Source: Halorubrum hochsteinianum (lineage in GTDB: Archaea > Halobacteriota > Halobacteria > Halobacteriales > Haloferacaceae). From it: a stretch of DNA of 64,000 nucleotides. The notes under the pieces were generated by a model. The model was not told the DNA's origin and did not search any database. It was given only the letters and a program-made list of their open reading frames with translations. Location of the stretch: NCBI RefSeq assembly GCF_023702125.1, contig NZ_CP098416.1, positions 1 through 64,000 on the forward strand, in the 5' to 3' direction. Position numbers and translations under genes: made by a program. Below are positions 3,446 through 59,126 of this stretch, one piece after another (position 1 is the stretch's first letter; each line of letters begins with the position of its first letter).

Positions 3446-3452
3446 TTGTTCG

Positions 3453-29114: not shown

Positions 29115-29198
29115 TTGGCTTCTCACCCGATGGCCGCAACCACCATCACGTTGAAATACGTCGATACGCCTAATACACTCACCGACAAAGAAATACAT

Positions 29199-29564
29199 AT
29201 GCCCATCGACATCGAGACCTTCGAATCCTCCCCCGAAGACCGGCTCCAGCACTCCGGAGAGACGAACGCAGACCGCGTGATGCGATTCCTCGCCACCCAT
29301 CCCGAGCAGGCGTTCACGCAGAGCGAGATTCGTGACGCAACTGACGTCAAAGCGGGGAGTATCAGCGTCGTCCTCTCCCGGCTCGAAGATCGCGGGCTCG
29401 TCCGGCACAAGGGCAACTACTGGGCGCTCGGTGAGGTCGATAACGTCGCCGCGTACGCCAGTATGCTCGAGAGCACGCGAGCAGCCAACGACCGCTTCGG
29501 TGAGGAGGACATGGACGAGTGGTTGGAACACGCCGTCGACGACGCGGACGAGGCGACTGAATGA
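29199..29564 (+). CDS. Winged-HTH antitoxin candidate of a MazF-type pair
   Basis: 121 residues from ATG 29199; an AAATACAT stretch sits directly before it. A helix-turn-helix of MarR/winged type is visible (MRFLATHPEQAFTQSEIRDATDVKAGSISVVLSRLE, about 27-60) with the wing VRHKGNYWALGEV. The C-terminal part is acidic and helical and could neutralise the toxin. It is coupled by ATGA to a PemK/MazF-like toxin gene, so it is the likely antitoxin and autorepressor. Using a winged HTH rather than a ribbon-helix-helix or AbrB domain is less common for MazF pairs. Confidence 0.75.
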   Translation: MPIDIETFESSPEDRLQHSGETNADRVMRFLATHPEQAFTQSEIRDATDVKAGSISVVLSRLEDRGLVRHKGNYWALGEVDNVAAYASMLESTRAANDRFGEEDMDEWLEHAVDDADEATE

Positions 29565-29902
29565 GCTATCAGCGCGGGGATGTCGTCTGGGGGCCGGACC
29601 CGTTCAAGTCCGGAGAGAACCCTCGTCCGTGGCTCATCCTCAACAACGACATGCATCCATTCGGTAACGAGGAGTACATGACGGTCACACTCACGACGAC
29701 GCCCCACGACGAGGGGATTCCCCTCGACGACGCCAACTGGGTCGAGGGCGGGATGCCCAGGCAGAGCTACGCCTCGCCGTGGGCCGTCGCGTCGCCAAAG
29801 CACGCCGCGATTGTTCGACGCCAAGGCCGCCTCGAGGAGTCGTTCGTCCAGACCATCGTCGACGCACTCGGAACGTATCTCGAACCACCGGCCGAGGAAT
29901 GA
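29561..29902 (+). CDS. PemK/MazF-like endoribonuclease toxin
   Basis: 113 residues. The MazF/PemK fold signature is present: RGDVVWGPDPFKSGENPRPW then a strand with LILNNDMHPFGNEEYMTVTLTT, the usual core of the SH3-like barrel, then SPKHAAIVRRQGRL. MazF family toxins cleave mRNA (and sometimes rRNA or tRNA) and arrest growth. The start overlaps the antitoxin stop (ATGA) and its own stop overlaps the next gene (ATGA). Family assignment is good; activity is assumed. Confidence 0.82.
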   Translation: MSYQRGDVVWGPDPFKSGENPRPWLILNNDMHPFGNEEYMTVTLTTTPHDEGIPLDDANWVEGGMPRQSYASPWAVASPKHAAIVRRQGRLEESFVQTIVDALGTYLEPPAEE

Positions 29903-30222: not shown

Positions 30223-30775
30223 GGGTCTTTGAAAGCCCTCGGCCGCTCGACGTCCCGCGACCGCCGCTGCGCTCCTCGTGCCTGCGGTGCTTGCGGGGTC
30301 GGGGGACGGCCGAGGCGGCCTCGCCCTTTCTGAGTCCGCCAGGATTGTTGTTGGTCCATCAAGCGACGTAGCCGGTTGAACAGGTGTGTACGTAGCGGCC
30401 CGCCCCGCGCGCCGCTGCCGCCCTCCGCGTCGCTCGCGACTGACCATTCCGGGCGTGCGGGCGCTCTCCGCACCGCCCGCGCCCGTTCCGGGCCAAAGTG
30501 CATGTGCCCTCGGCGCCAGCGGGTAAGCGCGGGGGGTTGCGCGGCGTGGCTGCTCACCCCCGACTGATATCCTTCTAGCTGAGGAAGCACTGTTCACAAG
30601 GTATTATTTTGATCGTAGAAATTACTGAATCCGGGGGGAAGTAGATTTTATTACAAGGTTACGGCATCCGTCACTCGTGTTGACTCGGTCACACAAACTG
30701 AGAGCGGCTTAATTCCTGCTAAAGATGTTCAAACTGTGTTTAATACGGCAGATGGTAGATACGATCAATTTCTCG
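30223..30775. other. Gene-poor GC-rich stretch with a repeated RNA-like element
   Basis: The first 320 bases are GC-rich and contain one copy of a ~100-nt repeated element (30418-30521). The last 150 bases are AT-rich and contain a start-less open frame, probably a decayed gene piece (30619-30846). No intact gene. Confidence 0.45.
30418..30521. ncRNA. ~100-nt GC-rich repeat element, copy 1, candidate non-coding RNA
   Basis: Shares conserved flanks (CCGCCCTCCGCGTCGCTCGC at the left; AAAGTGCATGTGCCCTC and CGCCAGCG at the right) with 36665-36762. The middle differs in sequence but pairs with itself in both copies (here GCGGGCG with CGCCCGC). Conserved ends around a variable paired core suggest a folded RNA. 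Strand and transcription are unknown. Confidence 0.4.
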
Positions 30776-30846
30776 TCACAAAGACGGTGTATCCGGGTGT
30801 GGCTCCTCTAAAACCGGCTCAAACGGGATCTCCCCAGCTGAGTTGA
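30619..30846 (+). pseudogene. Start-less open frame, probable gene remnant
   Basis: 75 codons open from the stop TAG at 30616 to TGA 30846, with a plausible soluble-protein composition (KVTASVTRVDSVTQTESG ...) but no start codon and AT-rich codons unlike the GC-rich neighbours. It overlaps the end of the convergent beta-helix gene. It looks like the tail of a gene lost by rearrangement; it could be chance. Confidence 0.3.
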
Positions 30847-32068
30847 TATTATCGTTACTATCGAAAATCATACCTTCAATTGTATCTGTATTCGTTGTCC
30901 CCCAGTAGTTATTCGTCCCCGTTAGTGCTGCATCTTCGTACCCTTCAGGAAGTTTCAACACAATCTCATCCGTCATATTGAGGAACGAATTATACTCAAC
31001 AATAGTTTCTGAGGAGCCGTAACTAGTCCAATTGTTAATCAAACCACCATATGTCGCACTCCGCCCCCTGTCAAACACGTTATGTCGAATAAGAACCTGG
31101 ACCGTTTTGTCATCGTACCGGTCACCAGTGCCCACAGCAAAACCACCAGAGTTGATGAATTCGTTATACTCAACACGGATTTCAGTCCGCGAGGTCTCAT
31201 ATTCTGCCGTTGAACCACGGTACGGATACCACACGTACGACGCTCCAACGTTTTCTAACCGAGACCGTCGAAGATGGAATCCTCCCCAACCACGCATCCA
31301 AAACGGTCCGCCGTTCCTAATCGTACAGTACTCAGCATCAAGGAATGCGTCCGGGGGTGAATTTTCAGCCTCAAAAAACGTTGACCGCCCATCCCGACCA
31401 TCAAACGTGATCGAGTTATTCGACGACCCCTTCGCGGTAATCTCCCCGTGCATCAAGAACATCGAATCGTCATCGAGTGAATCGCCAGCTAGCACTGTAG
31501 CACCGGGTTCAATCGTTAATGACACGCCCTCCCGGACCTGCACCGTCGATGTGACTACGAATGGACTATCGCTTGCCGACCACCGCGTATCGTTGTCAAT
31601 AACACCACCGACCTCAGTCACTGACAGTACTGAAAAGTCGACTGCTTGGTCACCGACTGCTAATTCGTGCGTTCCGGGGGTGTCTAGACTGAGCTGGAAT
31701 TGAACTTGAGTACCAGATCCACTTTCTAATCGGACAGATTTTACTGTATACGGATCTCCATCGACGAGTAATTCGACATCACGAGAACCAGTGGATCCTC
31801 CGTCGTTGACTAATTCGACAGTTATTGTCGTGGATTCGCCCGGATACGTTTCTGGCGGATTGACATCGATATTCTGTACGTTAATTTCTGCCGGGGCTGG
31901 GGTATCAGTTTCCTCGGTTGTTTCTACCGACTCAGCCTCTGTAGTGCTGCTTGTCCCCGTGGTCGATGTGGAGGATTCAGGAGACCCAGAACTGTCCCCG
32001 GGAACACCGGCACAGCCAGATAGGGCGGTGAAAGCACCAATAGAAATCAAGAGTCCTCGCCGATTCAT
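30776..32068 (-). CDS. Secreted lipoprotein with CARDB-like and beta-helix domains
   Basis: 430 residues from ATG 32068. A lipoprotein signal with twin basic residues (MNRRGLLISIGAFTALSGC, Cys near 19) and a Ser/Thr-rich linker. A CARDB-like Ig domain follows (VNPPETYPGESTTITVELVND), then a right-handed parallel beta-helix with repeated strand-turn units (IRHNVFDRG, VEYNEFINSGG, VEYNSFLNMT), as in pectin-lyase-like surface proteins. Codons are AT-richer than neighbours. A 23-bp tandem duplication covers the start codon (32054-32099), creating a second out-of-frame ATG upstream that reads only nine codons. The role is likely cell-surface binding or hydrolysis. Confidence 0.8.
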   Translation of the reverse strand: MNRRGLLISIGAFTALSGCAGVPGDSSGSPESSTSTTGTSSTTEAESVETTEETDTPAPAEINVQNIDVNPPETYPGESTTITVELVNDGGSTGSRDVELLVDGDPYTVKSVRLESGSGTQVQFQLSLDTPGTHELAVGDQAVDFSVLSVTEVGGVIDNDTRWSASDSPFVVTSTVQVREGVSLTIEPGATVLAGDSLDDDSMFLMHGEITAKGSSNNSITFDGRDGRSTFFEAENSPPDAFLDAEYCTIRNGGPFWMRGWGGFHLRRSRLENVGASYVWYPYRGSTAEYETSRTEIRVEYNEFINSGGFAVGTGDRYDDKTVQVLIRHNVFDRGRSATYGGLINNWTSYGSSETIVEYNSFLNMTDEIVLKLPEGYEDAALTGTNNYWGTTNTDTIEGMIFDSNDNINSAGEIPFEPVLEEPHPDTPSL

Positions 32069-32099
32069 GTCTTGGGTCCTCGCCGATTCATGTCTTGGT
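32054..32099. repeat. 23-bp tandem duplication over a start codon
   Basis: Two adjacent copies of TCCTCGCCGATTCATGTCTT plus GG, differing at the final base, give two ATG codons 23 nt apart on the minus strand. Only the downstream one leads into the lipoprotein frame. Confidence 0.8.
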
Positions 32100-32269
32100 T
32101 TCCAGAGGCCTGAAAAGTAAAGATTTGGTAAAATTTTGTAGAATTGCTGAATATAGGACGGTCTCACTCAGAGCAATTTATTCCCCATACACCAATATTA
32201 CGCCCGAGAAGTGATTAAATATGTGTATACTGCCATTTTTATCAGCAGTCGATTCCTTTTGAGTCCCAT

Positions 32270-33163
32270 ATGGGCAAAAATGTGATCCTCGTTGGAGCCG
32301 GTGCGAGTTTTGGGGCAGGAGAGGTTTACCCTGATAATCCACCTTTAGGTAGAGATCTATTCACACAACTTGAATCTAAATTTCCAAGGTCATGGGGATC
32401 CCTGCCCGATCACATACGGAAAAATTTTCTGAAGGGCTTTGAAGAAGGGATGGTAGCGTTGTCTGAATCCGATTCGAATCTTCACGCACCTCTGTACCAA
32501 GCCATGGCGGCATACTTTGCAGAATTTTCGATTGGAGAAAATAATCACTATGCGGCTCTAATCGAGAGTCTACACAATTCTATTACCAACGGCGAAACGG
32601 TGTTTGTCTCACTCAACTATGATTGTCTTCTCGAAGAAGCCATTGAAGCCGCAGGAATTGATGTCGACCCTGTCCCCGAGAATCTCGGAAATCCTGGTAC
32701 CGTCATCAAACCGCATGGTTCATGTAATTTCCTTCCAGCATCAATCCAGGCATCAGGAATTTCATTTACCGAAGGTGTATCATTCGATGCCGGTGTGAGG
32801 TGTGTCTCAAAAGAGGAGGTTATCGAATACTACCATAGCGACAAGGCCCTCTATCCGGCCATGTCTCTCTACCGCCCGGATAAAAGCACTCAGATCTCCC
32901 CCCCAGTGATTCATCGATTCCAGGAATTGTATCGGAAGGCAGTATCTGAAGCCAATACTATTGGTATAATTGGTGCGGGTATTCATGCTCAAGATGACCA
33001 CATTTGGGATCCGTTGGCATCGTCGGATGTACCACTCTATTACATTGGTGGAAGGCCTGACTTCGATGACTGGCAAGCTGAGCACCGAGACGCCGGTGTA
33101 AATCAATATATTTCACAAAAATTTGGCGACGGCGTGGATGAGCTAATTACGGCATTTGACTGA
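32270..33163 (+). CDS. SIR2-like NAD-binding protein, candidate defence gene
   Basis: 297 residues. The glycine-rich NAD-binding loop VGAGASFGAG is at 8-17, the catalytic region SLNYDCLLEEA near 115 has the Asn-Tyr-Asp seen in SIR2-like defence proteins, and a conserved His is in KPHGSCN near 148. The C-terminal Rossmann-like part ends with GAGIHAQDDHIW. Proteins of this type usually destroy NAD+ on infection (Thoeris ThsA, SIR2-APAZ and others), but here no partner gene is fused. DNA is AT-rich compared with surrounding genes, a sign of transfer. A MITE is inserted 12 nt after its stop. SIR2-like family is clear; defence is inferred. Confidence 0.8.
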   Translation: MGKNVILVGAGASFGAGEVYPDNPPLGRDLFTQLESKFPRSWGSLPDHIRKNFLKGFEEGMVALSESDSNLHAPLYQAMAAYFAEFSIGENNHYAALIESLHNSITNGETVFVSLNYDCLLEEAIEAAGIDVDPVPENLGNPGTVIKPHGSCNFLPASIQASGISFTEGVSFDAGVRCVSKEEVIEYYHSDKALYPAMSLYRPDKSTQISPPVIHRFQELYRKAVSEANTIGIIGAGIHAQDDHIWDPLASSDVPLYYIGGRPDFDDWQAEHRDAGVNQYISQKFGDGVDELITAFD

Positions 33164-33175
33164 ATGCACTCTCTG

Positions 33176-33315
33176 GGCATATTTAGACGCTCCTGAATTG
33201 GTGGGTTAGTGGCTCTGTTGGGGGAACAGAATTTGTCCATGAGTCCCTTTCAGTACGCTTTCGCTGTCCGGAAAAGGGCCTGAAACGCCTATCTCCACCG
33301 CGTCTAAACAAGTCT
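33176..33315. mobile_element. 140-bp MITE, copy 1
   Basis: Terminal inverted repeats with core TTTAGACGC (33182-33190) and GCGTCTAAA (33300-33308). It is flanked by a perfect 9-bp target duplication CACTCTCTG (33167-33175 and 33316-33324), leaving exactly 140 bp. Same length and ends as the copy at 36416-36555. It encodes no protein, so it is a non-autonomous element. Confidence 0.85.
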
Positions 33316-33466
33316 CACTCTCTGTATTCAGCACGCTATTCTTTACAGATTTCGAGTGGGTTGCGGCCCAGCGTCGCGGTTTCGTTTTTACTTAGCGCTT
33401 CAAAACAAGTGTAACCGCTGCTCTACGACACCCGGTTCAGATTGCGTAGTGTAGTGATGTTTTTGA

Positions 33467-33489
33467 GCGCCTGCAAAGGGTGCAGGCGC
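33467..33489 (+). promoter_or_regulatory. GC leader hairpin with AAAGGGT loop (before the tnpB unit)
   Basis: GCGCCTGC / GCAGGCGC perfect 8-bp stem with loop AAAGGGT, after GTTTTTGA; 89 nt before the small gene at 33579. Confidence 0.5.
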
Positions 33490-33578
33490 GTTCAGTCGTG
33501 CCTGCACAGCACAGGTGATTCGAGATGCAACGCCACCAGCAGCGACAGGTGTATCGACAGCCGGAGGTGCGATGATCG

Positions 33579-33755
33579 ATGGCGGTCGAACTGAATGAAA
33601 TCGAGGAGGCCGAAGTCGAACTGGAACAGTGGTTAGTCGAACAGGCCGAGAACGGTGTTCCGGAAATGGTCCTAATCGGGCTCCTTCGGGACTACGCGGA
33701 CGACATCGAACACCTCGGTTACGTGCCGCGAATGTGGGGTGAGTCAGAGCGATGA
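33579..33755 (+). CDS. Small acidic protein coupled to tnpB
   Basis: 58 residues, MAVELNEIEEAEVELEQW ... GESER. It is one long acidic helix then a short turn. Its TGA overlaps the tnpB ATG (ATGA, 33752-33755), so the two are co-translated. Its leader holds one of the GC hairpins. It may be a TnpB accessory or a host-derived fragment; the sequence does not tell. Confidence 0.55.
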   Translation: MAVELNEIEEAEVELEQWLVEQAENGVPEMVLIGLLRDYADDIEHLGYVPRMWGESER

Positions 33756-34939
33756 GACGAACCAACTCCTTCGAGATCGTGCCCCAGTCGAACCAAGCCG
33801 GCACCATCCTTCGACGGCTCCTCGATGCGTCAGCTAGGCTCTGGAACGAGTTGACCTACGAGCGGCGGCAGCGATTCTTTACCGGAGAGAGCGTCTGGGA
33901 CTGTGACGGATATAAAGACGAGTACGTCGATCTGATCGGGTCCGCGACGACCGCACAAGTCGCCCGCCAGAACGACCAAGCGTGGCGCTCGTTCTTCGAA
34001 CTCCGCGAGACGTCGGACCACGATCCCAACCCACCCGGTTACTGGGGGAATCGCGAGGACGGTCGCGAACTGCGGACCTTCATTCGGAAGGATATGTACT
34101 CTCTCCGGTGGGGCGAGCGTTCTCGTCTAGAGGTTCCGATTGGACGGGACCTGAAAGACGAGTACGGTTTCGGGCGGTACGAGCGCCTTCGGGTTCCGGT
34201 TCGTGGCGATCCACAGTGGACCGGCGAGCAGGGGCAACTCCGGTTGACGTACGATGAGGTCAAAGAAACGTACCAGGCCTACCAGTCAGTAACTGTCCCA
34301 GATGAGGAACGGACGACGCCGACAGGAGAGTCGGTCGCAGCGCTCGATATCGGCGCGAACGTCCTCGTCGCGTGTACGACGACGACCGGCGACCAGTACT
34401 GGTACAGCGGCCAAGAGCCGTTCCGGCAGTTCCGTGAGACGACCCAGCGCATCGCCGACGCCAAAGCGAAGCTGCCGGATGGACAGCAGACCAGTACGCG
34501 GATCCAACAGCTCTATGGGAAGCGATCTCGCCGGCGCGACCACGCCGTGAACGCGCTCGTTCGTGACTTGGTCGAGCGGCTCCACGACGACGGTGTCGAA
34601 ACCATCTACCACGGCGATCTCACCGGCGTCCTCGGCGAGTACTGGTCAGTCGAAGCCAATCTCAAAGCGCGCACGTTCTGGGCGCATCGACAGTGTCTCG
34701 ACCAGCTCGCGAACGTCTGCGAGGAGTACGGAATTGAAGTGGCCTCACTCTCCGAAGCGTGGACCTCCCAGACGTGTCCGGAGTGTGGCGAACGCGAGCA
34801 GACCCGCCGGCATCGCGAGACGCTGCGGTGTCCGTGTGGCTTCGAGGGGCACGCCGACCTCGTCGCGTCGCAGACACTGCTCGAACAGGCAACGAACACC
34901 GCGGTCAGGCCGACGGCACGGCCCGTGCGGTTCCAGTAG
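33752..34939 (+). CDS. tnpB: TnpB-family RNA-guided nuclease with rearranged catalytic site
   Basis: 395 residues of the IS200/IS605 OrfB (TnpB) family. RuvC-I Asp is D199 (ALDIGAN). The expected RuvC-II Glu position reads HGDLTGVL, so Gly288 replaces Glu. A conserved-looking Glu335 lies 47 residues on, in LSEAWTSQTC, just before the zinc ribbon (CPECG ... CPCGF). RuvC-III Asp is D369 (GHADLVAS). An alternative Glu about 45 residues downstream is described for Fanzor and related TnpB proteins, so the enzyme may be active. No TnpA gene is nearby. If it works as other TnpBs, its guide RNA would come from the 3' end of this gene and beyond. Confidence 0.82.
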   Translation: MRRTNSFEIVPQSNQAGTILRRLLDASARLWNELTYERRQRFFTGESVWDCDGYKDEYVDLIGSATTAQVARQNDQAWRSFFELRETSDHDPNPPGYWGNREDGRELRTFIRKDMYSLRWGERSRLEVPIGRDLKDEYGFGRYERLRVPVRGDPQWTGEQGQLRLTYDEVKETYQAYQSVTVPDEERTTPTGESVAALDIGANVLVACTTTTGDQYWYSGQEPFRQFRETTQRIADAKAKLPDGQQTSTRIQQLYGKRSRRRDHAVNALVRDLVERLHDDGVETIYHGDLTGVLGEYWSVEANLKARTFWAHRQCLDQLANVCEEYGIEVASLSEAWTSQTCPECGEREQTRRHRETLRCPCGFEGHADLVASQTLLEQATNTAVRPTARPVRFQ

Positions 34940-35141
34940 GACGATCACCAGTGGTCCCCCGTCGAGGGGGTCGCGGTGGGGCCCAACGAATAGCGCACAG
35001 ACCCGCAAGGTGCCGCCGTGGTGTCGCCGTGACACCAGCGAGCGGACGCTCCCGTGTGTGGAGTGGATGTCGATCCGCTGGTCGCTCGCTTTTCGTACGT
35101 GGTCCCTTAGAACTAATAGACGTACGGATGTCCCTTCAGTA
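34940..35141. other. Region after tnpB, possible guide RNA and right end
   Basis: No gene. It contains a GC hairpin (CCCCC-GTCGA-GGGGG at 34956-34970) and several GC-rich inverted stretches, as expected for a reRNA scaffold at a TnpB element's right end. The boundary with the cargo gene at 35142 is not defined. Confidence 0.35.
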
Positions 35142-36407
35142 ATGGACGCGTCAACCCCTTATTTTCAAGAAACGGTGAATCTAGATATTTATGACAAAGA
35201 TGTCCACGCAGAGGTCTCACTCTCAGAAGCAGGAAATATAGATGTGGAGGTTATCAATAGTCCTCAATTCGGTGTGTCCTCAGAATTCTCAGAAAACATC
35301 GGTGCCATTGGAGGAACAACCTTAGATGGCGACGGAGTTGAATTTTCTAATGTCATAGTTTCTCTTGGTTTACAATCAAGTAGGAATAAAGCCAGTCATC
35401 GATACATTAGTTCTCTGTCACCACCCTCCGAAATAGAGATTGACGGTTCTGGTGGGTATGTGTCCTACGAGGGTGAAGAAGTTAGTGTGCAGTTCGATGT
35501 TCTGGGTTTCAAGCCATTCATTCCACACAATGCAGTAGACGAGATCGAACTTATAAATCGGGATTCGTGGCAGGTGACAGCATCATCAGTAAATGAGATA
35601 GATGAGCGAATTGATTTCATCAAGTCTCACAAAACCCTTCTCCGAACAGCAGAGGTTGTAGTTACATTAGATATTCCAGGATGTATCTCACATCAAGTAG
35701 ATCAAGCTCGCGAAAAGCTGAGTGATGTACTATCCTTAGCAGGATTTGTACAGGGGATGGGGCCAAATTTCGTCCGAGGGGAAGTAATCAGCATCAATGG
35801 AGAGCCCCCTGATACTGTTGATAATGGGATTCGATTTACAAAAATGTGGTCTACACAAGGAGATATTGGTGGTGCATTCAAGTCAGAAAGGTTAGTCTGG
35901 GGAAATGAATTCCCACAATACTTAGACGTAGCTTATGACAATTATGATTCTTATGTCCAAGACGAACTTCAACTTCGACATGTCTTAGGATACTACTGGG
36001 ATGCATTAAATTCGACACGGCCCGTTGAAGGCCGCTACTTGAGTGTATGTAGTGCGATTGAGTTGCTTGCAAAACGGTATTCAGATCTATTTAAGCAACA
36101 ATCTAGAACGCAGGACAGAATCGAATATCTGGTTGATGAGTTAGAGGTCGAAACAGATGACCTTACCGACTTCGCAGGAACGTCTGATCGAGCCGTATCA
36201 TCAACGTATTTTTACAGTTATTCTCGCCAATATGTAGTTCACGGCGATAATAATCTGACTTGGAGTGAACTTCGAGATGATTTTGAGGCTGCCTTAACAC
36301 TCCTTCAACGAATCATCAGAAACCAGCTAGTTGGACCAGTAGAGGAAGAATCTGGTTTTAATGAACTGGTTGATATTAGTCCGAAAGGTGTTGTCGAATT
36401 CGAATAG
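35142..36407 (+). CDS. ApeA-like HEPN-domain protein, candidate defence RNase
   Basis: 421 residues from ATG 35142; open frame continues upstream into the tnpB region but with no sense. The N-terminal ~300 residues are beta-rich (SNVIVSLGLQSSRNKAS, VSYEGEEVSVQFDVLGF). The C-terminal part is helical (YLSVCSAIELLAKRYSDLF ... LRDDFEAALTLLQRI) with the HEPN catalytic pair R-x4-H at R362 and H367 (SRQYVVHGDN). This layout resembles ApeA, a HEPN RNase with anti-phage activity. DNA is strongly AT-rich relative to neighbours. A MITE is inserted 8 nt after the stop. HEPN is likely; defence is inferred. Confidence 0.65.
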   Translation: MDASTPYFQETVNLDIYDKDVHAEVSLSEAGNIDVEVINSPQFGVSSEFSENIGAIGGTTLDGDGVEFSNVIVSLGLQSSRNKASHRYISSLSPPSEIEIDGSGGYVSYEGEEVSVQFDVLGFKPFIPHNAVDEIELINRDSWQVTASSVNEIDERIDFIKSHKTLLRTAEVVVTLDIPGCISHQVDQAREKLSDVLSLAGFVQGMGPNFVRGEVISINGEPPDTVDNGIRFTKMWSTQGDIGGAFKSERLVWGNEFPQYLDVAYDNYDSYVQDELQLRHVLGYYWDALNSTRPVEGRYLSVCSAIELLAKRYSDLFKQQSRTQDRIEYLVDELEVETDDLTDFAGTSDRAVSSTYFYSYSRQYVVHGDNNLTWSELRDDFEAALTLLQRIIRNQLVGPVEEESGFNELVDISPKGVVEFE

Positions 36408-36415
36408 AGTATAAT

Positions 36416-36555
36416 GGCCTTGTTTAGACGCTCCTGAAGACACAGGTCAGTGGCTATGTTGGGTGATGAGATTCAGTCCGTGAGCGCCTCTCGATCAGTT
36501 TCGTTGTTCGGATAACGTCCGTAGCGAGTGATCTGCACCGCGTCTAAACAAGGCT
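36416..36555. mobile_element. 140-bp MITE, copy 2
   Basis: A 15-bp perfect terminal inverted repeat GCCTTGTTTAGACGC (36417-36431) / GCGTCTAAACAAGGC (36540-36554) and a perfect 9-bp target duplication GAGTATAAT (36407-36415 and 36556-36564) bracket 140 bp. The left copy of the duplication overlaps the stop codon of the HEPN gene. Same family as 33176-33315. Confidence 0.88.
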
Positions 36556-36664
36556 GAGTATAATTGTTCAAGTTGCGCTATGCACGAATTCTATAGGTAC
36601 AGCATTCATTTCCGGGGTCGCCTTGTTGATATGAGCCGTTACGGCTCGCACCGCTCGCCGCTTT

Positions 36665-36762
36665 CCGCCCTCCGCGTCGCTCGCGACCGACCATTCCGGG
36701 CTGCCTGCCTGCGGTAGCGGGCGGGCTGCCGGGCTAAAGTGAATGTGCCCTCGACGCCAGCG
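36665..36762. ncRNA. ~100-nt GC-rich repeat element, copy 2, candidate non-coding RNA
   Basis: Conserved flanks match 30418-30521; the variable core here pairs GCCTGCC with GGCGGGC. It lies 300 bases before the OB-fold gene. See copy 1. Confidence 0.4.
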
Positions 36763-37059
36763 CTTCACCCGTTCGGGTCCTGCGGACCTCGGCGAAGCCG
36801 ACCGCGACGGACGTGGTTGCGTCGCGGCGAACGGGGAATGCGCTGGCCGCTCGCTCCGGGCGGGTCGGCGCGCGGTGCTGGATGAGGCCACCTCATGCAG
36901 GCGCGCTCTCGCTCGCGCCCGGTAGGGCGCTCGCGAAGGCGCGAGCGAGAGCGCGCAGATGGTTCTGTCGGTCGTTGTCGTCGGAAAACCGCGATGTAGT
37001 AGCATCGCGGTGTCGGCGCGTGAGCGCCTTCGTCGGAAATCACCTTGTGAGTGATTCCA
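36763..37059 (+). promoter_or_regulatory. Highly structured leader of the OB-fold gene
   Basis: It holds a perfect 19-bp hairpin (36901-36919 / 36938-36956, 18-nt loop), a perfect 9-bp hairpin (ACCGCGATG / CATCGCGGT around 36989-37012) and a GGCGC-GTGA-GCGCC-type hairpin (37015-37027). Such stacking suggests an RNA-level control, an attenuator, or a replication-related site. Confidence 0.5.
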
Positions 37060-37926
37060 ATGTCTAGTAACAACGCTAGCGGAAAGGTCGTTTCGGTCGA
37101 TGAACAGGCATTCGAGAAAGCGGGCGGTCAGGCGGTCGATGAAGACGGCTTCCCAGTCGTCGACGAGACGCCGGAGTTCGAGGCGGCGGTCGAGCAGGAG
37201 ACGCAGGCGAAGGTGGATGCAAACCACCCGGACGGGATCGCGGACACGAGCCAGGATCAGATTCACGGTGTCACCCTCGAACAGGAAGAGCGCATTCGGG
37301 CGCGGGAAGCCGAACTGGAGCGCATCAGTGCCCAGGCCGAGCTGGGAACGCAGGACGGTCGCGAGCAGCGCACGCGAGAGGTCGTCAGCGAGCAGTGTGG
37401 TCGCGACGAGCCGGCGCCGGCGGAGCGCACGGATCCCCGAGAGAAGCTGACGCAAGAGGAACTCGCGGCGGTCAACGAGCAGGCGATGCGGATCAGCGAC
37501 GAAGTGAAGGGCGGCTGGTCGAGAGCGGTCGTCGCGAAGCAGCTGGCTGAGAAGGTGCAGCGCGGGCGGGACGTCACGAAGGCGGTGCTGGAGACCCTCG
37601 AAGAGCTGAAGGCGGCGCCGGGGGCGATCGTGCCCATCGCGGACGTGCCGGACGTCCCAGTCGGTGAGGTGACGGTCGAAGGCACAGTGAGCGAACTCTG
37701 GGATCCTAGTTCCCCAGCAATCGCCCAAGTCGGACTCATCGAAGACGAAAGCGGGCGTACGAAATTCACGATCTGGGAGAAGAGCAAGAAGACGGTGGTT
37801 CGAGAAGGGCAGACAGTCCGGTTCAGAGCGGTCAAGAAAAATTGGTACCAAGGACGGTGCAGTCTCGCCATCACGGGCTGGAGCAGGATCGAGTTCCCAG
37901 AGCGCGGCCGGTGGTGGGAAGAGTAG
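37060..37926 (+). CDS. OB-fold single-stranded nucleic acid-binding protein (RPA-like)
   Basis: 288 residues from ATG 37060. The N-terminal ~140 residues are an acidic, helical, low-complexity region (LEQEERIRAREAELERI). The C-terminal third is an OB fold: VPVGEVTVEGTVSELWD, then QVGLIEDESGRTKFTIW and EGQTVRFRAVKKNWYQGRCSLAI, the strand pattern of RPA-type domains. It probably coats plasmid ssDNA during transfer or replication, in line with the primase and T4SS in the window. No zinc finger is visible. A T-run (37941-37950) after the stop is a likely terminator. Confidence 0.85.
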   Translation: MSSNNASGKVVSVDEQAFEKAGGQAVDEDGFPVVDETPEFEAAVEQETQAKVDANHPDGIADTSQDQIHGVTLEQEERIRAREAELERISAQAELGTQDGREQRTREVVSEQCGRDEPAPAERTDPREKLTQEELAAVNEQAMRISDEVKGGWSRAVVAKQLAEKVQRGRDVTKAVLETLEELKAAPGAIVPIADVPDVPVGEVTVEGTVSELWDPSSPAIAQVGLIEDESGRTKFTIWEKSKKTVVREGQTVRFRAVKKNWYQGRCSLAITGWSRIEFPERGRWWEE

Positions 37927-37940
37927 CCAGTTGAGACAAC

Positions 37941-37950
37941 CTTCTTTTTT
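37941..37950 (+). terminator. T-run terminator after the OB-fold gene
   Basis: CTTCTTTTTT begins 15 nt after the stop codon; archaeal RNA polymerase terminates at such runs. Confidence 0.45.
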
Positions 37951-38080
37951 GCTGTGTGCCGGACCGACCCAGGCCCCACCTCCCCACCCTCCGCTCCGTG
38001 CTCGCTTCGCTGCGCGCGCAGCCACGACCTAGAGAACTCGATGTTAAATTGACATCATAGGATTCGACTTATGTACAACT

Positions 38081-38857
38081 CTAATTGTCCAAGTCTATTG
38101 AGGCGGTCGGTGTTTCCTCACCCGCGAACGTCTCCAGCAAGTACAGCACGCTGAACCCGAGGTTCTCATGGATCCAGTCCTGATTCGAGTAGATGTCCGT
38201 GAAGTCGCCGGTCACGAAGTGGCTGATACCGATTTCCTCCTTCAGGAACACGGCGTCACAGATCAGCGCGATATCCGCATTGTTCTTCATATGGACCGGC
38301 CATTCCTTCAACCGCTTCTCAACGTCGGGATACTCGCGGTCTCGCATCGGTTCCAGATAGACACGGGCCTCGATCTGGTCCTTGTGCTTGATCGACCGCT
38401 CCATCAAGACGTCCTTCAGCTTCCGAGCAGCTTCCCGAGCTGTCCGCCGAGTGAGCTCGCCCTCCTTCTCGAAGTACCACTCAAAGTACTTCTGGAGCCG
38501 AGGCCGCACCTCCTTCTCCTCTGACTCCTTCATGTCGAACCGCTCGACGTACTCGTCCATCACCGTCTCAATATCGAGCTCGTCGTCACTGTAGGTTTGC
38601 AGCATCTTCCCGAACTGCCTCAGTTTCAACCGGAGCTTCGCCCGTTTCTCCCCGTACAGGCCTTCGTTCCGGTCTAACCGGATGTCGGCGGAACGCCGAC
38701 TGTTGTCCTCGGTGCTGGAGCAGTACTCGTAGACGGCGTTCTTCCCGGTGTAGATCGTGTTATCGGTGTCGAACAATCGTTTGGCGTCAGGGTACCACCG
38801 GTCATTGATGAAGGTGAGTCCGAGCAGGCAGTTGGTGTCTACGAAGTACCGGGTCAT
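38081..38857 (-). CDS. PIN-domain protein
   Basis: 258 residues. PIN-type acidic residues occur at the N-terminus (RYFVDTNCLLG, D7) and in NADIALICDA and FVTGDFTDIYS near the C-terminus; they coordinate Mg2+ or Mn2+ in RNases of this fold. The middle carries a long charged helical insertion (about 75-160) that is not usual for a compact PIN toxin. It follows the 38870 gene by 12 nt on the same strand. Together they are divergent from the Argonaute locus. It may be a toxin RNase or an effector; no known antitoxin fold is clear. Confidence 0.75.
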   Translation of the reverse strand: MTRYFVDTNCLLGLTFINDRWYPDAKRLFDTDNTIYTGKNAVYEYCSSTEDNSRRSADIRLDRNEGLYGEKRAKLRLKLRQFGKMLQTYSDDELDIETVMDEYVERFDMKESEEKEVRPRLQKYFEWYFEKEGELTRRTAREAARKLKDVLMERSIKHKDQIEARVYLEPMRDREYPDVEKRLKEWPVHMKNNADIALICDAVFLKEEIGISHFVTGDFTDIYSNQDWIHENLGFSVLYLLETFAGEETPTASIDLDN

Positions 38858-38869
38858 GGAGGGGGTTGG

Positions 38870-39739
38870 TTAGGGGGCGGGTGAGAGACCGAGGAGTGCG
38901 ATCGCAACTCCGTCAGCGGCTTCGGACACTACTTGGTTCTCTTCCAGGTCTGTGTGTAGCCGGGAGCGTTCTCGCTCTATCAGTTCGAGTTCCTTCCGGA
39001 TATCCTCTTGTCGGCCTTCGAGGTCCTGCGTGTCTAGTTCCTCGGCGATCTCTTCGGGGGTCAACCCGGTGTTTTCGCGTTGGGCGAGGTCGATGCAGAA
39101 GATGGTCCAGAACAATTCAGAGACCTTCAGGGCCTTCTGCGGCCGGTACTCTTCGGCATCAAGTTCAGCACTTACAACCGAGTACCAGAGATCCAGGTCC
39201 TGCTCCAGCCACGGGTAGTCGTCGACTGGGAAGGTATCGATGATATCGAAGACCGTGTTGATGACTGCTTCCCTGCTGGAGTCTACTTCGGGGTAATCTG
39301 GTTTGTCGTCAATAGCGTTACTGAGCTGTTTGTCGAGTCGTCGGTAGTGGCGTTGAACATCGTAAGGCGCGTCCTCGTACATGTCATCGGTCAGCCCCTC
39401 CGTATTTTGTTCGTACAGACGGTTGAGTGCTCGAGAGAGTGCGAGTCGAGCCTTTGTCTCTTCCTCCCTGGGGAGGCTGAGCTGAGAAGCTGAAAGGCTA
39501 CAACGGACTTCTCGGCTATCGTCACTCCAGTCTACCGTGACTGGGGATCCACCGGTCTTCGCCATGGTTCCGAACTTGTACCAGAAGTGCTGGATATCCG
39601 TGTCCAATCCGACGTCGTTGAGTTCCTTGTCTGCGAAGTAGAGTAGTTTATAGAAGGTTTTGGGGCGTAACGGGTTCGAGTAGAATCTCTCGTCCAAGAG
39701 AAGGGCCGTTACCTCCCCTACGCTCAGTGTAGAGGTCAT
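38870..39739 (-). CDS. Panacea/SocA-like N-terminal domain protein
   Basis: 289 residues. The start RPKTFYKLLYFADKELNDVG and the following WYKFGTMAK resemble the Panacea (SocA/DUF4065) domain, which often acts as an antitoxin or as a proteolysis adaptor. The rest is helical and acidic with a C-terminal coiled-coil region (LELIERERSRLHTDLEE). It is transcribed ahead of the PIN gene (12-nt gap), making a possible antitoxin-toxin order. Its promoter region (39740-39904) is shared with the divergent Argonaute operon. The Panacea assignment is tentative. Confidence 0.5.
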   Translation of the reverse strand: MTSTLSVGEVTALLLDERFYSNPLRPKTFYKLLYFADKELNDVGLDTDIQHFWYKFGTMAKTGGSPVTVDWSDDSREVRCSLSASQLSLPREEETKARLALSRALNRLYEQNTEGLTDDMYEDAPYDVQRHYRRLDKQLSNAIDDKPDYPEVDSSREAVINTVFDIIDTFPVDDYPWLEQDLDLWYSVVSAELDAEEYRPQKALKVSELFWTIFCIDLAQRENTGLTPEEIAEELDTQDLEGRQEDIRKELELIERERSRLHTDLEENQVVSEAADGVAIALLGLSPAP

Positions 39740-39904: not shown

Positions 39905-41293
39905 GTGGCCCTCACCAACCTCCTAGGCGAACGCGAGGCCCTCGCTAAAAACTCGGAGATCTACGGTGACAAGGTCCAGGAGTACATGGAGGCGATGGGA
40001 TACTACATCACGGAAACATCGCCCACCCATGGCGGGCTTGTCGACCAGAAATATGAACTCCCAGAGATCAGGGGTGACCGAGAGGTCTGGGTCGAGCTCA
40101 AGTGGACAGACCAGCGCCGTCACGGGAAGAAATTCCTCGAGGAGATGGGGAAGTACTTCCTCCACTACATGGACCGGTCTCCTGAGAAACGGTTCGACGT
40201 GGCCATCTTCGGGCGGAACCTCGAGAACTTCAAAGAGTGGCAGAAGATCTTCGATGTCACCAAGCAGACCGACGAGGCAATCCAGGAGTTCTACGACCGG
40301 GTCTGCGAGAACGACAAACTCTCGGACGAGCATCAAAGGAAGATTAAGAGCTATTCGATGGACGATTTCGAGGAGTTCCTGAGTGACACCCACGTCTACC
40401 AGGCCGACTACGACTCGCTCTTGATGAAGATCGAGGAGTTCGAGAAAGACGACCGGTTCAAACCCGACTTCTTCCAGCGTGAAGCCGAACCCATCACCGA
40501 CAGGTCAGAGCTGACCACCAACCTCGTCGAGATAACAGAGTACCCTGAAACTCTGTACATCGGAGACCAGGTGGAGGGCGCGACACAAGAGGTAGCATTC
40601 AAGCTACGCCCATTCACGGTGCCGACGTGGTTCAAGTCGAACAAGGTGTATAGCCTGTTGCCGCCGGAGGAAATGCCGAGAGCGGTCAAACAGTTCATTG
40701 ACCCGGACACGGTCGAGGAGACCGGGTTCCGGTCGTGGGTAGAAGCCGACCAAGGGAACGCCGATATTGGGAAACGGCTGATTCGGGCCGTTGTCCTCTC
40801 CAAGGGTGAAGACCGTGGCTGCATCGCGATAAACTACCGTAGCGACTACCACCTGTACTTCCCACACGAAGACCCCGAAGCGGAGGTCCGGAAAGAAGAG
40901 GGGCGACAGGTCACAAAACACTACGATGAGGCCGAATCACCCTTCTTCCGCCACCACTCACTCCGTATCGGCATCCTCGAATACCCAGGTCAGTACTTCC
41001 TCACCCTGAAACCAGCTATCCTGTTCACCACCAACGGGAAAGAAAACCGGATCACCGGGGAACAAGCCAAACCGTTACACGACAGGTTCAGCCCCAGCCG
41101 ACACGGGAACAACCGGAAAACACGGAGTCGGATCAACCACTGGTGGAAAATCCTGGACTACGGCGACCCCAAACAGGAAGATCTGGACATCGGGACAGAA
41201 CCCGTGATGCTCGAAGTCAACAAAAGGCCGCCCAAAGACACCGACGAACGGGACGGCACCATGCAGAACAAGTGGTTAGGAGATTTCCAATGA
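39905..41293 (+). CDS. Nuclease-APAZ protein, partner of short Argonaute (DREN-APAZ type)
   Basis: 462 residues from GTG 39905; an A/T box GATTTAGGTA lies about 30 nt upstream. The N-terminal ~110 residues form a PD-(D/E)xK-like domain: D47 in GLVDQKY and the catalytic pair E64-x-K66 in WVELKW. From about residue 190 the protein has the beta-rich APAZ-like region (LYIGDQVEGATQEVAFKL, VPTWFKSNKVYSLLPPEE), which in short Argonaute systems occupies the place of the missing N/PAZ lobe. It would form a heterodimer with the next gene and become a collateral DNase on target recognition. The stop overlaps the Argonaute start (ATGA). Confidence 0.75.
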   Translation: MALTNLLGEREALAKNSEIYGDKVQEYMEAMGYYITETSPTHGGLVDQKYELPEIRGDREVWVELKWTDQRRHGKKFLEEMGKYFLHYMDRSPEKRFDVAIFGRNLENFKEWQKIFDVTKQTDEAIQEFYDRVCENDKLSDEHQRKIKSYSMDDFEEFLSDTHVYQADYDSLLMKIEEFEKDDRFKPDFFQREAEPITDRSELTTNLVEITEYPETLYIGDQVEGATQEVAFKLRPFTVPTWFKSNKVYSLLPPEEMPRAVKQFIDPDTVEETGFRSWVEADQGNADIGKRLIRAVVLSKGEDRGCIAINYRSDYHLYFPHEDPEAEVRKEEGRQVTKHYDEAESPFFRHHSLRIGILEYPGQYFLTLKPAILFTTNGKENRITGEQAKPLHDRFSPSRHGNNRKTRSRINHWWKILDYGDPKQEDLDIGTEPVMLEVNKRPPKDTDERDGTMQNKWLGDFQ

Positions 41294-42708
41294 ACGAGTT
41301 CACCGCCGAAGTCCTCGACGAACCCGGCTTGATGTTCGCTGACGGCGAGGACTCCATCGACCCCCGAGTCGGATTGATGAAATACGGACCAAGAACTCCA
41401 TCCGGCAAATCCGAACACCAGGTAATCAACGTCGGATACATCGGGTCTGGCCGGTCTCTCGGCGGCCTCGAGAAACTGTTCAAGGACATGGAGCTGGCGA
41501 TCACCGCCGACGAGGACAAGTCGAAGCGGTGGAAACCACCGTTCCCCGGCCTCGGCGAACGGTCACCGCTGAACTTCACGTTCAACACGCAGAAGCGGTG
41601 GCGGCAGACGATTACTCGAGGCGAGATCCGGGACCTGAAACAAATCCGCAGCCGGAAAGACCGGTTGGAAGAAGCGGTCGAGATCATCAAGATCAACCTT
41701 GAAGTCCTGTACGCCAAGGAAACGCCGCCTGACGTCGTGTTCATCGCGATTCCAGAAGCGATGTGGGACGCATGCACTCCATCCCACCAGGACCATGCCC
41801 GGATGCAGTCAGAGACCAGCGACTTCCACAACCGGATCAAGCTGCTAGGGATGGAAGTCGGGTTGCCGACGCAGCTGATGCAGCCGAAGACCCTCCGCGG
41901 TGAGGGCGTCCAGGACAAGTCCGAGATCGCATGGAACATCGCGGTTGGAACACTGTACAAGGCGCAACGCGGCCATCCCTGGAAACTAACCGAGCTGGAG
42001 GACGGAACGTGCTTCGCCGGGATATCCTTCTACAAAGAGCGAGGCGGAGACCAATCCCGGACACGGACAGCTATGGCCCAAGTCTTCCTGGAGACAGGGG
42101 AGAACTTCATCCTTCGAGGCGACCCCGTCGAAGGAGAGAAGCACGGCCCAGGGAACAACCACCTCGCAGAAGACGACGCCAAGCAACTGGTAAAGAAGAT
42201 TCTCAGGCACTACCGTAGCCACAAAAAGACTGAGCCGCGACGACTGGTGCTTCACAAGCGGTCGGAGTTCTGGGAAGAGGAGCGAGAGGGCTTCATCAAA
42301 GGTGCCGGGAACATCGAGTTGATGGACTTCGTCACGGTCCGAGAACGGCACCCAGTCCGGGCCTTGAGTTCCGGGATTTATCCGGCGCTTCGAGGCACGA
42401 TGGTCTCCGCACCGAACAACGAGGAGCACTACCTGTACACGAAGGGGTACATCCCGGCTTTGTCGACGTATCCGGCCTCGAACATCCCGGAGCCGATCGT
42501 GGTCAAGCCGGATCCAGAGGTCAGTGACTCATCGCCACAGAAGCTGTGCCGAGAAATGCTGGCGTTCACGAAACTGGACTGGAACACTTCGGATTTCTGC
42601 ACGAAGCTTCCGGTTACAATCGGAATCTCAGATGCCGTTGGGAACATTCTGGCTGAAGCTGAAGCTCAAAACACCAGTCTGGACATCCATTACTACCATT
42701 ATATGTAG
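41290..42708 (+). CDS. Short prokaryotic Argonaute (MID-PIWI)
   Basis: 472 residues from ATG 41290, coupled to the nuclease-APAZ gene. It has only MID and PIWI lobes, as in short pAgos. MID-like basic region (KRWRQTITRGEIRDLKQIRS) is followed by PIWI strands: LPTQLMQPKTLRGEGVQDKSE, CFAGISFYKE and RRLVLHKRSEFWEEE. Where active PIWI domains have the first Asp (GxD) this protein has GIS, and no Asp follows the LVLHK strand, so the slicer site is probably dead. Such Argonautes bind a guide and target and trigger the partner nuclease. The assignment to short pAgo is good; guide type is unknown. Confidence 0.8.
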   Translation: MNEFTAEVLDEPGLMFADGEDSIDPRVGLMKYGPRTPSGKSEHQVINVGYIGSGRSLGGLEKLFKDMELAITADEDKSKRWKPPFPGLGERSPLNFTFNTQKRWRQTITRGEIRDLKQIRSRKDRLEEAVEIIKINLEVLYAKETPPDVVFIAIPEAMWDACTPSHQDHARMQSETSDFHNRIKLLGMEVGLPTQLMQPKTLRGEGVQDKSEIAWNIAVGTLYKAQRGHPWKLTELEDGTCFAGISFYKERGGDQSRTRTAMAQVFLETGENFILRGDPVEGEKHGPGNNHLAEDDAKQLVKKILRHYRSHKKTEPRRLVLHKRSEFWEEEREGFIKGAGNIELMDFVTVRERHPVRALSSGIYPALRGTMVSAPNNEEHYLYTKGYIPALSTYPASNIPEPIVVKPDPEVSDSSPQKLCREMLAFTKLDWNTSDFCTKLPVTIGISDAVGNILAEAEAQNTSLDIHYYHYM

Positions 42709-42766
42709 AACATCAGCTGGATTGTGTTCTAGTTGACTGGAGTACCGATACCATCCGTTTCTATCG

Positions 42767-42787
42767 GCCCCTCAATGGGCGAGGGGC
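42767..42787 (+). promoter_or_regulatory. GC leader hairpin with AATGGGC loop (before TFB)
   Basis: GCCCCTC / GAGGGGC 7-bp stem after GTTTCTATC, 38 nt before the TFB start at 42826. Confidence 0.5.
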
Positions 42788-42825
42788 TCGCTGTACTGGC
42801 GGGTTCCCTGAACACGGTGAGAACG

Positions 42826-43752
42826 ATGGCAACCAGAGACATCTACGAGAGCGGATTCGACGAAGACGTCCGAACGGAATCGAGTGCGAACCAGTGTCCT
42901 GAGTGCGACGGCCGGGTCACCACGAACGCGGTCGAAACGGTCTGCGAGGACTGTGGCCTGGTCATCAACGAACAGCGTATCGATCACGGGCCGGAGTGGC
43001 GGGCGTACGACGACGAGGAGTGCGAACGAACGGGCGCTCCACTCACTGCGGCCCGCCACGATCGCGGCCTGTCGACGGAGATCGGTCGCGGTACCGACGC
43101 GAAGGGGAACGAACTCTCGGGGCAGAAGCGACAGCGACTCGCGCGGATGCGCCGTGAGCAGACCCGTGGTCGCTGGCGGTCGAAAGCGGAACGGAATCTC
43201 GCACACGGACTGGGCGAAGTGCGTCGGTTGGCGAGTGCCCTCGAACTCTCCAATTCGGTCCGCGACCAGGCGTGTCAGCTCTTCCGGAGCGCCCAGAACG
43301 AGGATCTGCTTCGTGGCAGATCCATCGAGGCCATCGCCGCGGCCAGCGTCTACGGGGCATGTCGGTGCAACGGCCTCTCGCGGTTGGTGGACGACGTCAG
43401 CGAGATGGCCCGCGTCGCAGAGTCACGGGTCACGAACGCGTACAAAACGCTGAACGAAGAGCTGGGCCTCCCCGCTGAGCCCGTCTCCCCCAGCATGTTC
43501 GTGCCGCGACTCGCCTCGGACCTCAAGTGTCCGAACGAAATCCGACAGCGGGCCCGAGCCCTCGCGGAACAGGCCGAGGAGCGCGGCGTCACGACGGGCG
43601 TTCATCCGGCCGGGTTCGCCGCGGCCTGCCTCTACAAGGCCGGTCGCGAAGAGGGGCGATGGCTGACGCAATCCGAGGCCGCGGACGTGGCGAACGCCTC
43701 GAAGGCGACTGTTCGGGCGCACCGGGATACGTTGGAGGAACAGGTCGCCTGA
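42826..43752 (+). CDS. tfb: Transcription initiation factor TFB
   Basis: 308 residues from ATG 42826; in-frame upstream starts (TTG 42733, ATG 42775) overlap the leader hairpin. An N-terminal zinc ribbon (CPECD ... CEDCG), the B-reader region (EWRAYDDEE, TGAPLTAARHDRGLSTEIG) and two cyclin-like repeats (LGEVRRLASALELSNSVRDQACQLF and ASVYGACR; then CPNEIRQRARALAEQAEE and FAAACLYKA) are all present. It recruits RNA polymerase with TBP. Haloarchaea carry several TFBs, and plasmid copies can rewire expression. Its length is normal. Confidence 0.95.
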   Translation: MATRDIYESGFDEDVRTESSANQCPECDGRVTTNAVETVCEDCGLVINEQRIDHGPEWRAYDDEECERTGAPLTAARHDRGLSTEIGRGTDAKGNELSGQKRQRLARMRREQTRGRWRSKAERNLAHGLGEVRRLASALELSNSVRDQACQLFRSAQNEDLLRGRSIEAIAAASVYGACRCNGLSRLVDDVSEMARVAESRVTNAYKTLNEELGLPAEPVSPSMFVPRLASDLKCPNEIRQRARALAEQAEERGVTTGVHPAGFAAACLYKAGREEGRWLTQSEAADVANASKATVRAHRDTLEEQVA

Positions 43753-45573: not shown

Positions 45574-45710
45574 CACAAACATACGCAGCTCAAACAAATG
45601 TTCGGTCAATCCTTGACCGGGCGAGCATGACCCACGTCCAGACGTACAGAGAACGACGGAAACAGAAACCAACCAACAGAGAACGATTCCTCCGGGGTAC
45701 GTGCCAATGA
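45570..45710 (+). CDS. 46-residue basic protein hidden in the nrd operon
   Basis: MTQTYAAQTNVRSILD, then MTHVQTYRERRKQK and a short basic tail. Its ATG overlaps the nrdR stop (45570-45573) and its TGA overlaps the next ATG (45707-45710), so it is double-coupled with no spare base. It is rich in Arg, Lys, Gln and Thr, and lacks any cysteine, so it is not a NrdH-type redoxin. It is too short for ordinary gene finders. Function unknown; it may bind nucleic acid or the reductase. The coupling on both sides is the main evidence that it is real. Confidence 0.6.
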   Translation: MTQTYAAQTNVRSILDRASMTHVQTYRERRKQKPTNRERFLRGTCQ

Positions 45711-46717
45711 CTGAAAACAAAACCAAAGGCGGAGATCCGGAGACCGACATTTTCTCCGAACGAACGCAGCTCAAACCGTACGAATACCCCGACGTCCTCG
45801 AGTACAAAGACGCGATACGGAACAGCTACTGGGTTCACACGGAGTTCAACTTCTCAGGAGACGTTCAAGACTTCAAGGTCAACACGACTCCAGCCGAGAA
45901 AACCGTCATCAAACGGACGATGCTGGCTATCGCGCAAATCGAGGTCCAGGTCAAGACCTTCTGGGCAGACATCTACGACGAGATGCCCAAAGCGGAGATC
46001 GGGAACGTCGGTATGACCTTCGCGGAGAGCGAGGTCAGACACATGGACGCGTACAGTCACCTACTCGATATCTTGGGGATCACGGAGGACTTCGAGGAGG
46101 TGACTGACGTCCCCGCAATCGAGAAGCGGATCGACTACCTCGACGAGTACCTCGAGAAGAGCGAGAGCGACGACAAACAGGAGTACGTGATGAGTCTCCT
46201 GCTGTTCTCCACGTTCGTCGAGCACGTCTCGTTGTTCTCGCAGTTCCTCATTATGACGAGCTTCGACAAACACGAAAAGAAATTCAAGGGGATCGCGAAC
46301 GCCGTCGAAGCGACCAGCAAGGAGGAGCAGATTCACGGACTGTTCGGTGTCGAACTCGTGGAGACGATTCGGGAGGAGAATCCGGACCTCTTCGACGAGG
46401 AGTTCGAGGAGGAGATCCAAGCGGCCAGTCAGCAGGCGTTCGAGGCAGAGATGAAGATACTGGACTGGATCTTCGATGAGGGCGAACTGGAGTTCCTTCC
46501 CCGGGCGCACGTCGACGCGTTCCTGCGGGACCGGTTCAATCAGAGCCTCGAAAACGTCGGTGTCGAGCCGATATTTGACCCGGATGATGACCTGCTCGAG
46601 GAGACACGGTGGTTCGACGAGGACATCATGATGACAAAGGATAACGACTTCTTCAGCAAGCGGTCGACCACGTACAACAAACACGCACAGAGCGTCACCG
46701 CGGAGGACATGTTCTAA
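45707..46717 (+). CDS. nrdB: Class I ribonucleotide reductase small subunit (R2)
   Basis: 336 residues from ATG 45707 (GTG 45701 would give two more). A ferritin-like metal protein that makes the radical for the large subunit. Ligands by motif: E79 (AQIEVQV), E109 and H112 (ESEVRHMDAY), E172 (FVEHVSLF), E207 and H210 (EEQIHG). Tyr116 is four residues after H112, the position of the radical tyrosine. The first ligand appears to be Glu79 rather than the usual Asp. It is coupled to the 46-residue gene and followed 2 nt later by the large subunit. Confidence 0.92.
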   Translation: MTENKTKGGDPETDIFSERTQLKPYEYPDVLEYKDAIRNSYWVHTEFNFSGDVQDFKVNTTPAEKTVIKRTMLAIAQIEVQVKTFWADIYDEMPKAEIGNVGMTFAESEVRHMDAYSHLLDILGITEDFEEVTDVPAIEKRIDYLDEYLEKSESDDKQEYVMSLLLFSTFVEHVSLFSQFLIMTSFDKHEKKFKGIANAVEATSKEEQIHGLFGVELVETIREENPDLFDEEFEEEIQAASQQAFEAEMKILDWIFDEGELEFLPRAHVDAFLRDRFNQSLENVGVEPIFDPDDDLLEETRWFDEDIMMTKDNDFFSKRSTTYNKHAQSVTAEDMF

Positions 46718-46719
46718 CG

Positions 46720-59054: not shown

Positions 59055-59126
59055 CCTCAATTATGTGGACAGTACGTTGCAACTGCCAAATACGTTGCCG
59101 AACGCTACGCCGTCCTGTTTGTTGAA

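Follow-up and report, generated by a model that had tools for sequence, protein, structure and literature searches.

The first 64 kb (the window) of a 101,378-bp plasmid contig of Halorubrum hochsteinianum (NZ_CP098416.1; genome of 3.06 Mb in two contigs) hold, all on the forward strand, a SIR2-like gene (32270–33163), a TnpB-family gene (33752–34939), and a gene for a HEPN-domain protein (35142–36407), with a 140-bp miniature inverted-repeat transposable element (MITE) behind each of the two outer genes (33176–33315 and 36416–36555). An earlier note on this DNA had picked out these five features, all of which are present, and had read them as a defence block gathered on a mobile plasmid. The SIR2-like and HEPN genes are indeed low in GC content (46.8%, 0.42 at third codon positions, and 42.4%, 0.34 at third codon positions, respectively) against 59.0% for the window. 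The contrast that had been drawn with their neighbours holds for TnpB (62.8%) but not for the gene adjoining the SIR2-like gene, which encodes a CARDB-domain lipoprotein and is itself at 49.4%. We consider that the stretch is probably where a haloarchaeal plasmid, itself putatively conjugative, carries its variable cargo, and that three slots there carry effectors that act independently of one another.

This reading starts from TnpB, which the earlier note had placed within the mobile cargo and which is instead a fixed gene of the plasmid backbone. Close relatives of TnpB (70–83% identity) are found in 26 others of the 391 class-level genomes sampled for all gene-distribution counts, always at the same position, and a clear gap separates them from the next group at only ~60%. 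An open reading frame (ORF) of 58 aa (33579–33755, forward strand), whose stop overlaps the TnpB start, precedes TnpB in 26 of 26 relatives and may encode a partner protein of TnpB. On the other side, a gene for an OB-fold/RPA-like DNA-binding protein (37060–37926, forward strand; Ssb-like_OB E 6e-4, NF005553 replication factor A E 1.2e-18) follows in 24 of the 26, at 1.9–10 kb from the TnpB start. The two relatives without it are L107, in which the sequence stops at a contig edge, and L100, in which an IS5-type element is found there. The interval from TnpB to the OB gene differs among relatives in both length and content.

Three conserved boxes recur around this changing cargo. Box A (30231–30560), the left border of slot 0, is matched in each of the 26 related plasmid regions; box B (36637–37059), directly 5′ of the OB gene, is the right border of slot 1; and box C (37930–38030) is the left border of slot 2, which ends on the right at a TFB-family gene (42733–43752, forward strand; Pfam TFIIB E 1.4e-35) that also lies 3′ of the OB gene in several relatives. 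The backbone runs from box A to the 58-aa ORF, TnpB and its 3′ tail, then through box B, the OB/RPA-like gene, and box C to TFB, with three slots between these parts. Slot contents are most likely swapped among plasmids by recombination in the conserved boxes. A repeat of ~120 bp, 80% identical between its copies, is present in boxes A and B (30396–30521 and 36642–36762), and these copies could be recombination sites at the slot 0 and slot 1 borders.

In the window, slot 0, before TnpB, holds the CARDB lipoprotein-like gene (30776–32167, reverse strand; Pfam CARDB E 3e-6), the SIR2-like gene, and the first MITE; slot 1, after TnpB, holds the HEPN gene and the second MITE; and slot 2, after the RPA-like gene, holds a short Argonaute cassette. 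The start of the CARDB gene contains a perfect 23-bp tandem duplication (32053–32098). Among 75 non-redundant slot proteins of the relatives, matches of defence type included ApeA, PsyrT, DpdF, CARF/Csa3, and PDC-S58, and matches unrelated to defence included PQQ propellers, pdxST, DHH, Usp, and HTH proteins or regulators; many of the CARF/Csa3-type matches may reflect HTH domains. Because defence and non-defence cargo are mixed, we regard the slots as cargo slots and not as purely defence islands. Hotspots of antiviral genes are known from other mobile elements, such as those of P2 and P4 (PMC9122126), which likewise have fixed core genes around changing, partly defensive cargo. The arrangement described here differs from them in its haloarchaeal plasmid backbone, its three adjoining slots, and its mixed, non-defence cargo. 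A slot 1 protein of 626–643 aa with a nuclease-like C terminus (VIECKADP), found in L104 (1348–3228) and with a homologue in L106, could be a further effector.

Exchange of slot contents can be followed most closely for the HEPN gene. Compared with the plasmid region of Halarchaeum nitratireducens (L003), the nucleotide identity is 54–77% in TnpB and then rises to 92–98% over ~35.1–36.7 kb; the 5′ part of the OB gene is 94% identical and its 3′ part only about 57%. At the protein level, TnpB and the RPA-like protein of the two plasmids are only 65–70% identical. Because the HEPN segment is far closer than its flanks, the HEPN gene moves as a cassette of its own. Recombination within the conserved flanks, by which the cassette would have been swapped, is expected to leave such a pattern of identity.

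The HEPN protein (421 aa) has a β-rich part at residues 6–240 and a HEPN domain at residues 269–404. Its AlphaFold2 model (pLDDT 84, pTM 0.84) is β-rich in its N-terminal half and helical in its C-terminal domain, and the top two structural matches of residues 269–404 are YutE (1ylm, Z 7.6) and AF_0298 (2hsb, Z 7.4), both of which are listed as HEPN proteins (PMC3710099). An alignment of 14 homologues with 39% mean column identity shows Arg362 and His367 of the R-x4-H motif to be invariant. A Foldseek search with the whole model gave no significant match, and a second look (VIA) gave HEPN matches. The N-terminal β domain has weak Hcp-barrel-like matches, with Z about 4, which we do not interpret. 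The protein has no family match in Pfam, NCBIfam, or PADLOC, and by these searches it is a solitary family without an assignment in any of the three.

The known protein that it most resembles in layout is ApeA, in which a mostly-β N-terminal region is fused to a HEPN domain (PMC3710099); both are solitary genes with a C-terminal R-x4-H motif. By sequence, however, the protein is not ApeA. The ApeA_NTD1 and HEPN_Apea domains of Pfam are unmatched in 14 of 14 homologues, and the hhalign probability is 6.7%, with a single homologue weakly matching the PADLOC Cas13-ApeA model (E 0.009). No ApeA domains were found in the genome of H. hochsteinianum. A sister plasmid (L098) has a true ApeA gene (2434–3723) in its slot 0. 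The HEPN protein is probably an ApeA-like effector with predicted RNase activity, and it probably detects an intruder through its β-rich N-terminal part and cuts RNA with Arg362 and His367.

Relatives of the HEPN protein occur in 16 other genomes, often in chromosomes or on large contigs; no homologue was found in viral contigs. In 4 of 12 loci, they lie near methyltransferase, helicase, or mad8-type genes: a UvrD/GajB-like helicase (L029), methyltransferases (L035 and L036), a PLD/Snf2-type helicase (L036), and a mad8-like protein (L038). The relatives of both the HEPN and SIR2-like genes sit in unrelated and often chromosomal contexts, which is part of what the earlier note had named as a sign against its reading, yet some HEPN relatives lie beside restriction, methyltransferase, or helicase genes, and with such neighbours a defence role stays likely.

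The SIR2-like protein (297 aa) is matched by the PADLOC SIR2 model (E 3.6e-5) and by Pfam SIR2_2 at E 7.3e-4, below the Pfam cut-off. Its GAGAS, SLNYD, and KPHGS motifs, which are those of SIR2-domain defence effectors (SIR2_2 and the PADLOC SIR2 group), are intact and are largely conserved in two relatives. It differs from these effectors in its weak hidden Markov model scores, in having no second domain in its 297 residues, and in having no recognised partner gene adjoining it. We regard it as a candidate NAD+-hydrolysing effector, with Asn116 and His149 as the motif-based active-site residues, and by analogy with its family it probably consumes NAD+. Only two other genomes contain relatives, and no homologue was found among PLSDB plasmids.

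Downstream of the OB gene, the defence-like content of the region extends to 42708 with the short Argonaute cassette, which the earlier note had missed. Its genes encode a PIN-domain-like protein (38081–38857, reverse strand; weak Pfam PIN match, E 0.075), a protein of 289 aa of unknown family (38870–39739, reverse strand), a REase-APAZ protein (39905–41293, forward strand; PADLOC Aga_REase_Archaea E 9.4e-171), and a short prokaryotic Argonaute (41290–42708, forward strand; PADLOC pAgo_I E 3e-145). In two other plasmids, there are genes that agree with the PIN-like and 289-aa genes in both length and position, the former beside Argonaute. All four genes are found together in the same slot between OB and TFB of Halomarina BCD28, with an Argonaute 98.8% identical to the one in the window; in Halorarius halobius, where the Argonaute is 93.7% identical, they have different surroundings. 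The cassette moves between haloarchaeal plasmids as a unit. The adjoining REase-APAZ and short Argonaute genes resemble a nuclease-associated short prokaryotic Argonaute system described previously (PMC10810196). In contrast to that system, the window pair belongs to an archaeal branch and travels with the PIN-like and 289-aa genes in three plasmids. Together, the Argonaute and its REase-APAZ partner probably set off degradation of DNA.

The MITEs, which the earlier note had taken as marks of the block, are independent insertions of a miniature element of the IS5 family. The first has the ends GGCATATTTAGACGC and AGACTTGTTTAGACGC and lies between two copies of a 9-bp target site duplication (TSD), CACTCTCTG, at 33167–33175 and 33316–33324. 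The second has the ends GGCCTTGTTTAGACGC and AGCCTTGTTTAGACGC and its own 9-bp TSD, GAGTATAAT, at 36407–36415 and 36556–36564. The two are 73% identical and are the sole copies found in the genome. A 15-base MITE end was present in 63 of 242 haloarchaeal genomes, and the reversed control pattern was in none of those listed; closely paired ends are mostly 139–141 bp apart, and many copies have 9-bp TSDs. Several MITE flanks read AATA-N9-TATT, a pattern that the flanks in the window (AATG...TATT for the first and AATA...TGTT for the second) fit. The same ends bound two 979-bp elements, each of which encodes an IS5 transposase of 287 aa (E 2.5e-63), and the IS5 transposases of the H. hochsteinianum genome are only 40–43% identical to those of this parent element. 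We infer that a preference for AT-rich sites is enough to explain why they inserted directly after the stop codons. Both MITEs arrived later, from an element with a preference for AATA-N9-TATT sites, and such sites are found in AT-rich gene ends.

The conserved TnpB unit extends from about 33458 to 35094. The gene (NF040570, E 5.5e-38) is followed by a conserved 3′ tail (34940–35094, forward strand), a candidate scaffold of the right-end RNA (reRNA) on the basis of alignments, and the sequence immediately after the tail diverges between plasmids. The folding z-score of the tail (−0.57) is not informative. For the 16-nt guide-like flank behind the tail, the genome gave only matches with three mismatches, which is chance level, and nothing better was found within the loci of the relatives. 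In the protein, a TAG stop cuts off 18 C-terminal residues that are present in the relatives, and a profile alignment (QMEDLTN vs YHGDLTG) places Gly288 at the RuvC-II Glu position of Cas12f/TnpB-type structures, so that the RuvC D-E-D triad of the active TnpB nuclease is incomplete. Gly288 is invariant in 12 aligned sequences of the clade and is also seen in more distant haloarchaeal TnpBs, and it may go with either lost or rearranged catalysis. Elsewhere in the window, at 52307–53605, another TnpB, not of this type, has retained the Glu residue (VAFENLTGI).

Nuclease-dead TnpB regulators, known as TldRs, have been described (PMC13418256). Like TldR and Cas12m (PMC10442227), the window protein is TnpB-like, has an altered RuvC site, and is fixed beside non-transposon genes; unlike them, it is changed only at the RuvC-II Glu, and no guide target was found. 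It is conceivable, if a long shot, that TnpB, paired with the conserved 58-aa protein, is no transposon protein but an RNA-guided binder domesticated by the plasmid, by which rival plasmids or cargo are silenced; its guide would come from the left edge of the adjoining slot, such that each new cargo would reprogram TnpB. The plainer view that TnpB belongs to an ordinary IS200/IS605-type element, with the HEPN gene as its chance flank, also strikes us as improbable. Homologues of about 55–60% identity are widespread in haloarchaeal genomes, and the conserved 3′ tail, with a guide-like flank behind it that diverges, is what such an element would show, but in 26 of 26 relatives the clade keeps to a single place in the backbone, together with the 58-aa ORF, a TnpA gene was not seen next to TnpB, and the conserved region upstream has no single sharp end.

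Three other readings of the locus deserve comparison with independent effectors in cargo slots. The one closest to the earlier note would make SIR2, TnpB, and HEPN a joint defence system, in which RNA-guided sensing by TnpB sets off two toxic effectors. The three genes do lie on one strand within 4.1 kb, and the TnpB-HEPN pair recurs in one other plasmid, but that plasmid is without SIR2, the cargo next to the TnpB relatives is unrelated in 25 of the 26 plasmids, and HEPN is exchanged independently of TnpB. When we asked whether the SIR2 and HEPN genes travel together in related plasmids, as the earlier note had proposed, they did not: relatives of the two were never found in the same other genome of the 391 sampled. 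On this distribution we reject a joint system, to which we give very little credence. Even less credible is a composite element in which the two MITEs are the ends of a unit that moves TnpB-HEPN. The MITEs are of the same family and length, flank the stretch from 33.3 to 36.4 kb, and each have a 9-bp TSD, but each TSD is complete in itself and the pair is only 73% identical. The sister plasmid (L003) has TnpB-HEPN at the equivalent place in its backbone, and there the HEPN gene runs on into its downstream sequence with the MITE2 site intact and unoccupied. The transposases in the genome are the distant ones described above, and no locus with MITE1-TnpB-HEPN-MITE2 inside a single outer TSD was found here. 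On the separate TSDs and the empty site, we reject a composite MITE element.

A less remote, although still unlikely, alternative is that HEPN and SIR2 are not antiviral and serve plasmid maintenance or competition between plasmids, acting as lone toxin-like genes with a partner or trigger that the plasmid encodes. Both genes sit in a plasmid cargo slot, HEPN domains are common as toxins (PMC3710099), and a slot of another plasmid contains a halocin C8-like gene; no antitoxin-like gene, however, adjoins HEPN or SIR2, and the HEPN relatives, which often lie in chromosomes or on large contigs, several of them beside restriction-type genes, speak against such a role. The earlier reading of a single block is thus mostly wrong, and its defence theme, in the form of separate systems of foreign composition on a plasmid, is supported, plausible, and wider than first noted.

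Several observations weigh against independent defence effectors as we propose them. The defence role of the window genes is one that we infer rather than demonstrate by experiment. Fold Z-scores of 7–8 are moderate for helical bundles such as HEPN, and for 8 of the 12 loci of HEPN relatives, the neighbouring proteins that were checked included none clearly of a defence type. Relatives of the SIR2-like protein are very few, and the structure prediction for it, which was of poor quality (pLDDT 43), was not used. Elsewhere the slots carry plain metabolic or regulatory cargo, and slot position alone does not imply defence. Finally, conjugation of the plasmid is put forward from a sub-threshold VirB4-like match together with the MPF_T typing of annotated relatives in PLSDB.

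Other parts of the window are of interest in their own right. A gene pair encoding a winged HTH protein and a PemK/MazF-like protein (29115–29902) lies 5′ of box A and is kept in several relatives. The plasmid also carries genes for the small and large subunits of ribonucleotide reductase (45701–48414), and the N-terminal part of a 456-aa ORF (57690–59060) has Mrr/type IV restriction-like matches. Rfam and tRNA scans of the window gave no matches.

Overall, what is new here is an unclassified HEPN family; in other respects, the region is a further example of the known mobile-element cargo hotspot with defence genes. What appeared to be a joint block points to a more general rule, that of a widespread haloarchaeal plasmid backbone with three adjoining slots and defence genes among its cargo. 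Its boxes offer a way of finding new effectors in many haloarchaeal plasmids, with the HEPN family as a concrete candidate, and the fixed pair of TnpB and the 58-aa ORF raises the question of what role a TnpB without the usual catalytic glutamate plays in a plasmid.

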